A DNA stretch of 57,007 bases from Methylobacter sp. Lineage in GTDB: Bacteria; Pseudomonadota; Gammaproteobacteria; Methylococcales; Methylomonadaceae. The notes under the pieces were generated by a model. The model was not told the DNA's origin. It did no database searches and saw only the letters and a list, made by a program, of their open reading frames with translations. Positions within the stretch are counted from its first letter, which is position 1, and each line of letters opens with the position of its first letter. The translations under genes were made by a program, and so were the position numbers. Shown one piece after another: positions 5,713 to 9,280 of the stretch. The DNA lies in assembly GCA_024636505.1 (NCBI GenBank), contig JAGXGY010000029.1, positions 1-57,007 on the forward strand, written 5' to 3'.

Positions 5713-5756
5713 TGTGGGAGCGACGCCCACGTCGCGATGAGGGCGTTGCTCCCACT
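5713..5756. repeat. REP-like inverted repeat
   Basis: TGTGGGAGCGACGCCC (5713-5728) faces GGGCGTTGCTCCCACT (5741-5756) across a 12-bp centre. The left arm can alternatively form a smaller GCGACG/CGTCGC hairpin with the centre. The GTGGGAGCGnCG start resembles REP sequences associated with RAYT transposases. It lies between the divergent pqi operon and pentapeptide gene. Confidence 0.6.
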
Positions 5757-5853
5757 AAATGAAACCTGCGGATGTCAATCCCGGGTTGCAATAGCTCAGA
5801 ACTGTCGATAAAGTTCAGTCAATTATTCCATTAATCCGCAAAGAGGTCGCCAC

Positions 5854-6630
5854 ATGAAAACGCATTTTTACGCCCTGGGCTTGTTAGCCGTGTTGTTTTG
5901 TTGGTCGGCATCGGCGGCCGATCTTGATCGGTCAGCGGTACAGCAATTGCTTGCCGCCGCAGATAACAGTCATCCTGCACAATTACGACGAAAAGATCTG
6001 ACCGGACTGGATTTATCCGGCCTGGACTTCAGGAATGCCGACTTATGGGGTTCGGATTTGCGCAACGCCAATTTAACCAACAGCGATTTATCCGGCCTGA
6101 ATCTGGATTTAACGGTGATGTCCAAAATCAATCTTGCCGGCGCTAACCTGTCCAATACCAGTATTTTCGGCGTACACATGGGCGGCGCTAATTTGAGCGG
6201 CGCCAATCTGACCGGCAGCCGGTTTATCGCTAATCTGGATCGTGCCGACCTTAGCCATGCTAATCTGTCCGATGCCAACTGGGGCGTTGATATGAAGAAC
6301 CAGCCTATGGGTTTAATGCGGGTCAGTTTGAATAATGTCAATTTATCGGGCGCCAATCTGGCCGATGCCGACCTTAACCGTGCGTTGATGCGTCATGCCA
6401 ATCTGGTCGGCAGTGTGCTGAAAAATACGGTGTTATTTGGTGCTGATCTTTCCGGGGCCGATTTGACCGGGGCCGATTTGTCGGGGGCGGATTTATCCGA
6501 AAGTAAATTAGACGGTGTTAATTTTACCGGTGCTAACCTGACAGGCACACGGTTTGGTGTCGTGAATAATAAAGCTGTTTTGCAAGGTTTGAATTCAGCC
6601 AAAAATCTCGATGCGGCAATTTTTGATTGA
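5854..6630 (+). CDS. Exported pentapeptide-repeat protein
   Basis: The 258-residue product begins with a clear Sec signal peptide (MKTHFYALGLLAVLFCWSASA), so it is probably periplasmic. From about residue 45 to the end it consists of A(D/N)LxX pentapeptide repeats (for example GADLSGADLTGADLSGADLS), which fold into a right-handed quadrilateral beta-helix. An AGAGG Shine-Dalgarno lies about 9 bases before the ATG. Pentapeptide-repeat proteins vary widely in role; the exported type has no general function I can name. It stands alone between the pqi operon and a mobile-element-rich spacer. A short break in the regular repeat occurs near residues 145-160 (NWGVDMKNQPMGLMRVSL). Confidence 0.88.
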   Translation: MKTHFYALGLLAVLFCWSASAADLDRSAVQQLLAAADNSHPAQLRRKDLTGLDLSGLDFRNADLWGSDLRNANLTNSDLSGLNLDLTVMSKINLAGANLSNTSIFGVHMGGANLSGANLTGSRFIANLDRADLSHANLSDANWGVDMKNQPMGLMRVSLNNVNLSGANLADADLNRALMRHANLVGSVLKNTVLFGADLSGADLTGADLSGADLSESKLDGVNFTGANLTGTRFGVVNNKAVLQGLNSAKNLDAAIFD

Positions 6631-6676: not shown

Positions 6677-6727
6677 ACAAGATACCAAAATGATCAGCCA
6701 TTCTTATGTTGCGCTCTCAATAACGCA

Positions 6728-6870
6728 TTGACATCCACCCCCAGCTAAAGCAAGGGGATTCCTTAGTACAGCCCTCCATGCCCGAAGGGGACGACTCTGA
6801 AAATCGTCTTACTTCACGCCATCTCAGTTACCCTGATGGCAGGAGATACGTAGCAACAGCGTACCCAACA
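6728..6870 (-). ncRNA. Candidate omega-RNA-like right-end transcript
   Basis: The right-end half of the TnpB-less element has several hairpins: GCCATCAGGGTAACTGAGATGGC, broken up as GCCATC/GATGGC; GACGA/TCGTC; and CCC-TTCG-GGG. It ends at the transposon boundary, as omega-RNAs of TnpB systems do. The adjacent flank (from 6727 on the minus strand) would occupy the guide position. Whether it is transcribed or stable cannot be told from sequence. Confidence 0.35.
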
Positions 6871-6924
6871 AAAAAAATTATAGATGATAAACAACCAAAG
6901 TCAACAGCATCCTTATATCCCCGC

Positions 6925-7057
6925 CCTGAAGAGCAAAGCTATCTACACAAATATGGTAACAAATTGATATTAATGAGATTTTATTAAAAGCCATCTTTAA
7001 TAAATTTCAATGCAATCAATTGGCTGTAAAGATGTGTAGATAGCTTTGCCTGAAGAG
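6925..7057. mobile_element. 115-bp palindromic MITE with 9-bp target duplication
   Basis: The core is 6934-7048. Its 16-bp terminal inverted repeats are perfect: CAAAGCTATCTACACA at 6934-6949 and its complement at 7033-7048. CCTGAAGAG occurs directly on both sides (6925-6933 and 7049-7057), the signature of a target-site duplication. The AT-rich interior continues the palindrome (TTTATTAAA facing TTTAATAAA, AATTGAT facing ATCAATT), so the whole unit can fold into one long hairpin. It has no ORF and sits in the left-end hairpin of the IS200/IS605-type element. The element carries no transposase, so its mobilising family is unknown; a 9-bp duplication is compatible with IS1-like enzymes, among others. 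Confidence 0.85.
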
Positions 7058-7265
7058 ACGGGGCTTTAGGTAAAATCTGCCGCCGGTACCGGCTTGCTGG
7101 CGACATAGCCCTGATAGCTATCGCACCTTTGTGCCGCAAAAAGTCTAGCTGCTCCTGTGTTTCCACGCCTTCCGCAAGGACTTTAAATCCCAGAATATGC
7201 CTCATCGCAATAATGGTGGCGGTGATTTCCATGTCATGTGTGTAATTGACTCGGTCGTCTGTCCG

Positions 7266-9140
7266 CTAAAAACCGGTGCGCAAGCCTGCATAAACCGCCG
7301 CGCCGTTAAAACTAAAGTCGCGAAGTTCGGCGGTGCGTTCATCGGTGAGGTTCTCGCCACGCAAATAGACCTCGGTTTTTGGCGTTAGCCGGTAGTTTAA
7401 CAGGGCATTGATACGCGGCGCACTCTGAGCCCGAAATTGATTGGCGACATCAAACCAGTAACCGCTATGGACAGTCAACTCCACCCGAAAGGTTAAGGGC
7501 GGCAGCAATTGCAGTTCATTCCAGAATACGCTTTGGTGCTCGGGTCTGACGGGGATATATAATTTTGTCGCCGGGTTTTTGGCGTTCATGTAGCTGTAAG
7601 TCAGGCCGCTCTGCCAGATGTCCGACCAGCGGTGCTGCGCCTGCATTTCCGCGCCCCAAACATCCGCTTCCTGCACGTTGCCGGCCCTGATGATGCCGGT
7701 TCTTGAATCCAGTTGCATAGTGATCATTTGCCGATAATGCTGATAATAGCTGCTGATTTTGACGTCGCTTTCGGGCAATGGCTGCCAGCGCCAGCCTAGT
7801 TCGCCGCCGACATTGTGTTCGCCTTGTAGCGCCTGATTGCCGAACACCGGGTGCGTCGATTCGTTGACGCCGGGCTGGCGGTAACCGGTGCCGCCGTTGG
7901 CCCAGACGCTCATCTGTCGTGGCAATGAGCGGTTCACGCCCAGCGTAAACACCTGATGATTGCCGTAAGTGTCGCCTTGGTCGAAACGGCCTCCGGCGCT
8001 CCATTGCCAGTCGCCCAGGATTAATTCCCCACGCACGTTCGGGCTGATCACGGTTTGTTTGGCCGGTAAATTCAGTCCTTGTTGGTGTTGGGTATTGACG
8101 CCCCACACCAGCAGGGCTTGATCTTGATTGTCTGCGCCCAACGGCAAACGGTGGCTGTTTTTCCAGTCGAGCATCAATAACTGGCTGGTCAGTGTAAACG
8201 GGCTGATCGCGGTGGTTTGCATTTTTTGCCGGTCCTGGGTAAAGCCGAATTGCAGCGAACTGTTCCAATACCTCGCCAGATCGTACTGGCCGCGTAACTG
8301 CGCCACCCAGGTTTCATCGGAAAGTTTGCCTTGTGCATCGTCCACCCAGCCTATCGTGCGTCTGGGCAACTTCAAACCGGGACCGTCGATGTTTTCACTT
8401 GTACGTACAAAATACAACGACGCTTCCAGCCCGCCCCGGCTGAATTCTTTGGACCAGTTGGCCGACGCATGGGTCATGCCGAAATCGTCGCGTTCGGCGC
8501 CGCCTTGCGCCTGGCTGATGCCGCTGAAAACATCGCTACGCCCGACCACGGCGGAAAAATCTCCGGCGCGGGTAGACCAGCCGCTGCCCGCACTGCTGCG
8601 TAGCGTGTCGTAGCTGCCGCCTTCAACATGAAAGAAGCCGGTCTTATCCTGGATATGCCGGGTTTGCAAATGAATAGCGCCGCCGAGCGAGCGACTGCCG
8701 TGCCGTTCGCCGCCCGGGCCTCGCGTTACCGTTACCCGGTCGAAAGCATCCAGCGCATAGTGGCTTAAGGAGTAAAATCCGGCAAAGTTGGCAAACAGAG
8801 GCACGCCGTCTAACGTCAGCAGTCCCTGACCGCCGCCGCCCGCGCCGCGCAAACTCATGCCGGTCACCATCTGGCCGCTGCCCTGGTTGAGCATCAGGCC
8901 GCTTTGCCCCCTCAATACGCCGTTAACATCGCTCATTCCGCTAGCCTGTAGCGCCTCCCGGTCGATCTGGTTGCGCATACGCGGCGGTTCGATCAATTCA
9001 GGGTAGGTCAGGTCGTCGTAAACCATTACCGGCGGCAGTGAGATTTGGTCGTCAGCGGCCATGGCGCGGGCTGAGAGACCTAATAAAAGCGCCGCAACTA
9101 GCGGAAAGTTTTTCTGACGCTGGCTAATGAGTGAGTTCAT
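7266..9140 (-). CDS. TonB-dependent outer-membrane receptor
   Basis: The start at 9140 (MNSLISQRQKNFPLV) is chosen because it is followed directly by a signal peptide ending SARAMA; an upstream ATG at 9191 would add 17 unsuitable residues. The mature protein of about 600 residues has an N-terminal plug (GVLRGQSGLMLNQG, GMSLRGAGGGG, LLTLDGVPL, VTVTRGPGGERHGSRSLGG) and a 22-strand-type barrel ending in Phe (AGLRTGF). Such receptors import a scarce ligand using TonB energy. The sequence does not reveal the ligand: no cobalamin riboswitch or siderophore gene is nearby. The barrel is on the short side, like BtuB and small metallophore receptors. An EAL remnant directly abuts its stop codon. Confidence 0.9.
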   Translation of the reverse strand: MNSLISQRQKNFPLVAALLLGLSARAMAADDQISLPPVMVYDDLTYPELIEPPRMRNQIDREALQASGMSDVNGVLRGQSGLMLNQGSGQMVTGMSLRGAGGGGQGLLTLDGVPLFANFAGFYSLSHYALDAFDRVTVTRGPGGERHGSRSLGGAIHLQTRHIQDKTGFFHVEGGSYDTLRSSAGSGWSTRAGDFSAVVGRSDVFSGISQAQGGAERDDFGMTHASANWSKEFSRGGLEASLYFVRTSENIDGPGLKLPRRTIGWVDDAQGKLSDETWVAQLRGQYDLARYWNSSLQFGFTQDRQKMQTTAISPFTLTSQLLMLDWKNSHRLPLGADNQDQALLVWGVNTQHQQGLNLPAKQTVISPNVRGELILGDWQWSAGGRFDQGDTYGNHQVFTLGVNRSLPRQMSVWANGGTGYRQPGVNESTHPVFGNQALQGEHNVGGELGWRWQPLPESDVKISSYYQHYRQMITMQLDSRTGIIRAGNVQEADVWGAEMQAQHRWSDIWQSGLTYSYMNAKNPATKLYIPVRPEHQSVFWNELQLLPPLTFRVELTVHSGYWFDVANQFRAQSAPRINALLNYRLTPKTEVYLRGENLTDERTAELRDFSFNGAAVYAGLRTGF

Positions 9141-9280
9141 CTGGTTTTTCCGGCATTTGACTGCGCTACGATGAGTGCTGATACAGTACAATATTTATAA
9201 CTTATTTTTATTACCATGAAAGACTGAGTACTCGCCGCTGAAAAGGCAAAACGCTGTTTTTACCTTTCACAACATCCCGC

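Follow-up and report, generated by a model that had tools for sequence, protein, structure and literature searches.

A MITE of probable IS4 type in the left hairpin of a PATE near the end of a Methylobacter EAL gene: nested insertions at a recurrent landing site

Introduction

How do the last codons of a gene come to be separated from it by one small mobile element that itself contains another, and is the spot where the inner element sits peculiar to this copy? The question is raised by the remnant of an EAL gene in a stretch of Methylobacter DNA of 57,007 nucleotides, here called the window, which is contig C51 of a genome (G000, the own genome) of 2.83 Mb and 86.7% completeness. An earlier note on the window had proposed an order of events, EAL gene, then an IS200/IS605-type insertion without duplication, then a MITE with a 9-bp duplication, and with this order both the sequence and the relatives agree. 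The fuller account that we consider very probable as a whole is as follows. A Methylobacter-type GGDEF-EAL gene would have taken up, near its end and directly 3′ of TTTAC, a PATE (a non-autonomous IS200/IS605 element) without target duplication. A MITE of IS4 type would later have entered the hairpin at the left end of the PATE with a 9-bp duplication and so broken that hairpin, leaving untouched a right part that resembles a TnpB guide RNA and may function as one. Separately, a deletion of about 1.8 kb would have removed the gap behind a TonB gene together with the 5′ portion of the gene for the EAL protein, and one base would have been lost from the remainder. The left hairpin has been hit repeatedly, in part since the 9-mers there fit the target preference of the MITE and perhaps also since the integrity of PATEs is not under selection.

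The locus records two successive insertions, with empty sites in relatives to support the history, and it points to a conflict that has recurred between small mobile elements of two kinds, in which MITEs hit the hairpin that an IS605-type element needs for its movement. It also draws attention to a guide-RNA-like element of methanotrophs that lacks tnpB and is present in many copies; its guides could be taken directly from genome sequence.

The interrupted gene and its empty site

On the minus strand the EAL reading (...PVPAADFT) halts at an insert of 342 bp (6728..7069), and the last codons of the gene, ALLRAQHKNG-stop, pick up past it at 6727-6694, an assignment made from the reading and from the alignment of relatives. 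The composite insert has no duplication of its own and sits directly 3′ of TTTAC (7074-7070, minus strand); uninterrupted relatives, and ends in common with other copies, mark its limits. When the flanks are joined side by side, blastn matches to relatives continue across the join. All 11 aligned relative loci are uninterrupted and gap-free there, the site being TTTAC in three (L035, L036 and L041, in genomes G016, G008 and G019) and TTTGC, TTTAG or TTTGT in the remaining eight; the 11 include non-orthologues, and orthology is shown by the seven relatives in which gene order was checked. Intact orthologues end in TQLLQAQHEKMAAV (G016 and G008), AELLRAQHKNG (G012), AELLRRQHKNG (G020) or TELLRAQQKE (G019). 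The suggestion that removal of 6728-7069 restores the end of an EAL protein is thereby borne out. Alignment with intact EAL genes and empty sites had been named as the check, and a different protein end or the lack of an empty TTTAC site as what would speak against the suggestion; the ends found are TALLRAQ-like and TTTAC sites exist.

What precedes the insert (7070..7237, minus strand) is the EAL-domain remnant of a GGDEF-EAL gene from which the stretch upstream has been deleted; it is 92% identical to G016 and G008. The 36 aa ahead of its frameshift match Pfam EAL with an E-value of 1.2e-6 and 28.6 bits, just missing the cut-off of 31.3 bits. In G016 the orthologue is a 665-aa protein with both GGDEF and EAL domains in Pfam, and the window remnant begins at its residue 597. 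An internal frameshift had been suspected near 7125, and one base is indeed missing at 7126..7127 (minus strand): it is present in all 11 aligned relatives, which read on (e.g. KGCDAYQGY). The remnant differs from G016 at 12 positions, 6, 1 and 5 by codon position, too few to age it.

The neighbors are a TonB-dependent receptor gene upstream (7266..9191, minus strand; Pfam Plug, E 2e-14) and a pentapeptide-repeat protein gene downstream (5854..6630, plus strand; Pfam). All seven relatives checked have a match to the TonB receptor close to the EAL gene, though in G020 the adjacent match is a 57-aa piece only and the long match is about 2 kb further off; the pentapeptide gene is present in six and a full-length EAL gene in six. 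About 5713-5770, upstream of the pentapeptide gene, a REP-like palindrome, GTGGGAGCGACGCCC...GGGCGTTGCTCCCAC, can be seen by eye.

From the TonB stop to the start of the remnant there are 28 nt in the window and 1,867 nt in G016, so that a deletion has removed about 1.8 kb. The 28 nt at the deletion junction, from the TonB stop codon to the EAL remnant, are 7238-7265. The earlier note had recognized this 5′ loss and left its timing undated. A query of 1,044 bp is 89% identical to G008 and 87% to G016, 86% to G020, G012 and G010, and 83% to G022. As the two nearest genomes over this stretch, G008 and G016, both keep the full gene, the loss most simply postdates the split from them. The EAL gene of G022 is also truncated 5′, at a different junction; because of that difference, the greater distance of G022 and the intact genes of nearer genomes, its truncation is probably independent. 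The same facts disfavor, and do not disprove, an ancestral 5′ loss common to the window and G022.

The outer element

With the MITE and one copy of its duplication subtracted, the older insert is 218 bp long. On the minus strand TTTAC is followed by the guide AAAG, a hairpin, a conserved middle, the guide GAAT, a second hairpin and the end TCAA. The left end as far as the MITE (7049..7069) holds AAAG (7067-7064) and the 5′ arm of the left hairpin, and the rest (6728..6933) the 3′ arm, the structured middle, GAAT, the right hairpin and TCAA. Judged by these signals, which are those of IS608 ends, the older insert is a PATE-type non-autonomous IS200/IS605 element. Positions 6728-7069 are free of reading frames that reach 90 aa; the Y1 transposase TnpA is absent from the element, which is thus not an autonomous IS200/IS605 member. 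On its end signals it would have been moved by TnpA acting in trans, and Y1_Tnp genes are present elsewhere in the own genome (e.g. C37:40177-40542).

Of 26 PATE matches in the own genome, 15 are long copies, among them two that run off a contig, and the other 11 cover an end only. Seven of 23 genus genomes match, five with long copies and two (G017 and G018) with end-sized matches only. A search of named genomes for the PATE pattern gave 30 stretches, of which 25 are from Methylobacter (several bins labeled Methylobacter sp., and Candidatus Methylobacter titanis), one is from Methylococcaceae and four are in two uncultured proteobacterium bins; a search of plasmids gave a single record, in which an Acinetobacter tnpB matches the right end over 36 nt. 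The left end is unreadable in four of the 15 long own-genome copies (L008, L012, L019 and L020) and in five of the 30 copies fetched from relatives (L094, L099, L100, L111 and L112), leaving 11 and 25 readable. TTAC precedes the element in all 11 readable own-genome copies, and this fixed tetranucleotide goes with the absence of a target duplication; one relative's copy, L097, has TTTAAC before the element.

In seven of the 10 other readable own-genome copies the left end is TTACCAAAGAGTCCGTAAAG, and the window copy is about 10 of these bases short. The reconstruction of the left hairpin by removal of 6934-7048 and one duplication copy stands with one correction, that a linker of about 10 nt (AAAGAGTCCG) is missing as well. 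Among the unreadable left ends, L008, L012 and L094 have lost theirs at one place, homology beginning from TAAGGATG (query position 10) and the sequence ahead of it being unrelated. In L099 the linker is kept, and the hairpin is gone as far as that same position. L111 (G021:C78:50030-50810) has the left linker and then other sequence before the conserved core, and looks like another left-end break.

The subterminal palindromes are related to those of IS605 types, on the left as in L317 and on the right as in the tnpA/tnpB element L272. L317 is a tnpB-bearing element of G005 whose product has OrfB_IS605 and Cas12f1-like_TNB domains; its left end is nearly identical to the PATEs of that genome and its right end is similar, and the PATE would therefore be derived from, or share its ends with, a tnpB-bearing IS605-type element. 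Further tnpA/tnpB elements, whose right end is identical or closely similar, are found in G005, G018 and G008.

IS608 as described (PMC5934647) shares with the window element the cleavage sites TTAC and TCAA, the guides AAAG and GAAT, terminal hairpins, insertion 3′ of TTAC and a left end at which TTAC is followed by C, and is unlike it in that the window element has neither tnpA nor tnpB and is 218 bp. The PATEs of Haloquadratum walsbyi are likewise transposase-free, with IS605-related subterminal palindromes, no duplication and other elements inside them (PMC3119063). A PATE-like IS605 element of Halanaerobium hydrogeniformans is a further likeness in its make-up, with left hairpin, last 58 nt of tnpB and right end kept, and an insert within the ends of elements has been described from there too (PMC7290912). 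Unlike the case of the window, a single PATE-like sequence is described, and the insert is of 28 nt and sits in right ends at five loci, in elements that are said to have replicated.

The inner element

Within the PATE lies a 115-bp element (6934..7048) in which no reading frame attains 90 aa and which has perfect 16-bp inverted repeats, CAAAGCTATCTACACA, at its ends. The 9-bp target duplication, CCTGAAGAG, is read directly on either side (6925..6933 and 7049..7057, plus strand). The end pattern, at up to two mismatches, matches twice in the window, at just these ends, with 0.11 expected, and one of 100 shuffles reached two. Five of 23 genus genomes match the window MITE, with the full-length copies in G016, where two are at 99% and a third at 86%. 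As CAWARSTATCTACACA, the end pattern occurs in at least 26 of 61 genomes, own included, and its reversed control once overall. Sites of the family were taken from all 26 terminal inverted repeat (TIR) matches of the own genome and, elsewhere, from 43 places fetched among the matches listed (13 in G036, 7 in G001, 21 in G007 and one each in G027 and G057).

An autonomous-type element with such ends is L174, of 1,360 bp, in another genus of the family (G027, C97:45-1404). It has a duplication matching at nine of nine positions and encloses a 426-aa transposase; a frame 89% identical is open in G021. This transposase matches Pfam DDE_Tnp_1 at 1.7e-8, above the cut-off; it scores 90.6 bits with NCBIfam transpos_IS4_3, the cut-off being 160, is below the Pfam cut-off for Tnp_DNA_bind and had no match among solved structures. 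In YYWRWQIECFFKLVK YREK can be seen by eye, which we take to be the motif of IS4-type DDE transposases. Positions 115-1392 of L174 score 126 bits with NCBIfam NF011312 (flagellar regulator FlhF; cut-off 951), a model that may contain a transposase stretch. A second element, L173, of 1.37 kb, has a duplication that is not clean and a frame of 120 aa only. Being short and non-coding, with inverted repeats and a duplication length as in L174, the younger insert is, on these sequence features, a MITE of a putative IS4-type element. In the own genome, 86.7% complete, there is no match to the L174 transposase as a helper; eight of 23 genus genomes have one.

The nesting gives the order, PATE and then MITE. 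Since TnpA recognizes the hairpin that the MITE broke, the window PATE copy is now probably immobile.

A recurrent landing site

The nested insertion of the window has several counterparts at the same position in other copies, which is beyond what a reader of the window could see. In four of the 11 readable own-genome copies the left hairpin is interrupted by an insert, and a separate 9-bp duplication belongs to each: the window copy (115 bp; CTCTTCAGG on the minus strand), L014 (168 bp; CTTTAGGTG), L016 (176 bp; CCTTTAGGT) and L015, a minus-strand copy whose 168-bp insert, to the left of the match at G000:C44:77737-77924, is without the MITE's ends (TCCTTTAGG). The inserts of L014 and L016 are related MITEs in opposite orientation. 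Among the relatives one of 25 readable copies is nested, L104 of G021, with two tandem MITEs of which the second is without a clean 9-bp duplication. These six events in five copies all fall within about 11 bp, and the left hairpin of the PATE is a recurrent landing site.

The recurrence bears on a very improbable reading with which the window sequence by itself is compatible, namely that a PATE with the MITE already inside it arrived as a single unit. A second copy of the composite was looked for and none was seen; in the own genome the window MITE matches itself alone, and none of its copies in G016 is within the PATE. In the other nested copies the duplications differ, and L014 and L016 have the MITE in opposite orientation, so that the nesting in those copies is independent. 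A MITE in the hairpin should, moreover, block TnpA. Two separate insertions remain the reading followed here, and it can be asked why they meet where they do. The MITE family might recognize hairpins as such and have chosen this one for its structure. The clustering, with a crude estimate of 2e-7 that was made post hoc and takes no account of the copies' having been found through their right part, would fit, as would several other MITE copies that by eye are in right-end or REP-like palindromes, and five IS families, IS4 included, have been reported to target REP palindromes (PMC1525189). Over the 34 sites with seven to nine of nine duplicated positions (in the L104 row the flank ran into its second MITE), hairpin-driven targeting as a general rule is unsupported: against 3,000 matched controls the stem score was barely raised (p 0.047), with scores of 7 or more at three of the 34 and 5% of controls, and folding energy was no different (p 0.78). 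A signature of an IS605-type end within 40 bp was found for five of 21 own-genome inserts, yet for one of 43 in G001, G007 and G036 (the 1.37-kb L173 counting as two of these), which is not the pattern of REP-targeting IS elements, nearly all of whose copies are in a palindromic repeat. The five of 21 stand against 442 and 562 of 20,000 controls (2.2% and 2.8%; binomial 2e-4), with a signature that was made after the sites had been seen and that misses the window itself and several by-eye cases. Recognition of hairpins as such is accordingly unlikely.

Target sequence goes some way to replace it. By a matrix built from 24 sites away from such hairpins, seven of 11 hairpin-type targets are in the top 1.3% of window 9-mers, with that of the window at 0.1% and that of L014 at 0.35%; L015 (whose insert is from outside the MITE family), L016, L104 and L188 reach just 5.6-9.9%. 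With these ranks, and a general hairpin preference unsupported, sequence preference accounts in part for landing in the hairpin, and the absence of selection for intact PATEs may account for the rest.

Insertions into PATEs and IS605 elements in Haloquadratum (PMC3119063), and of IS4 elements in REPs (PMC1525189), have already been published, and the window case stands out by its unusually clear history and its recurrent landing spot. In Haloquadratum walsbyi PATEs or IS605 types were the target in 170 of 192 nested events, and in 30 of 31 MITE events, and it has been proposed that they are inactivated by SMR-A elements (PMC3119063). That host is an archaeon, and the section concerned has no single-hairpin placement or IS4 assignment, unlike the present methanotrophic bacterium where the same left hairpin is hit repeatedly. 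The likeness to ISRm22 of Sinorhizobium meliloti is that an IS4-family element is in palindromic repeats; all nine ISRm22 copies are in REPs (PMC1525189), unlike the window family, of whose inserts a part is in IS605-type ends.

The guide-RNA-like right part

The part of the PATE left untouched by the MITE includes a predicted structured RNA of omega/reRNA type (6728..6872, minus strand; 145 positions of a covariance model, R1, at 176 bits, the window being one of its 24 training sequences). The consensus fold of the 24 PATE copies has several stem-loops, and eight of its 47 pairs change on both sides, mostly via one diverged copy, L245. R1 picks up tnpB 3′ ends as well, at 36-45 bits, with part of the score from the right end. 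One hairpin with the stretch that follows it (6757..6792, minus strand) is common to PATEs and tnpB tails. In 15 distinct sequences 98.9% of 90 cells are paired, and five of the six pairs are changed on both sides; the covariation score was matched by none of 500 shuffles and none of six slid versions, and the number of pair types discriminates less well, being reached by 24 of 500 shuffles. Eleven of the 15 have GGGCAT as their loop, and the other four differ from it by one base. For a first, smaller set the search pattern had asked for a GGGCAT-like loop, so that loop constancy there is partly by construction; the 15 were assembled without that condition from 27 places, after eight duplicates and four without the arrangement (L271, L272, L325 and L326) were dropped. 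L271 and L272, tnpA/tnpB elements with a similar right end, lack the hairpin. The homology to tnpB 3′-end and right-end RNA is thus by way of one covarying hairpin, and excludes these two. Searched with the structured part, Rfam gave no family at its gathering threshold and, at E up to 1, chance-level matches only. HEARO or another catalogued RNA is accordingly set aside, the chance-level matches in L247 being outside the element.

Work of 2023 reportedly concerned TnpB guide RNAs and PATEs of Geobacillus. Because a tnpB element shares the near-identical left end, and tnpB 3′ ends the covarying hairpin, the PATE probably encodes a TnpB guide RNA. As IS605 ends must fold as single strands, the structured part could instead be a single-strand DNA structure for transposition, and the dependence of both-side changes in the 24-copy fold on L245 would suit this. 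The covarying hairpin is internal to the element, at a distance from the terminal hairpins, and recurs at the 3′ ends of intact or decayed tnpB genes, the source of reRNAs (PMC8612924), which makes a role in single-stranded DNA alone doubtful. In ISDra2 the TnpB reRNA is about 150 nt, from the tnpB 3′ end and the right end, with flanking DNA as guide (PMC8612924); the RNA predicted in the window similarly spans tnpB-3′-end-like and right-end sequence, and is unlike it in standing without tnpB. If a guide RNA is the product, the MITE-hit PATE could be a fixed guide-RNA locus whose guide, the EAL tail TGCGTTATTGAG..., is aimed at the empty TTTAC site, so that TnpB encoded elsewhere would cut insert-free alleles and keep a dead element in the population, a prospect that we rate as rather improbable.

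Elsewhere in the window, a long ORF at 113-1951 has glycine/aspartate-rich repeats and by eye is like an RTX-type calcium-binding surface protein; within it, at 1306-1374, is a 27-bp tandem repeat.
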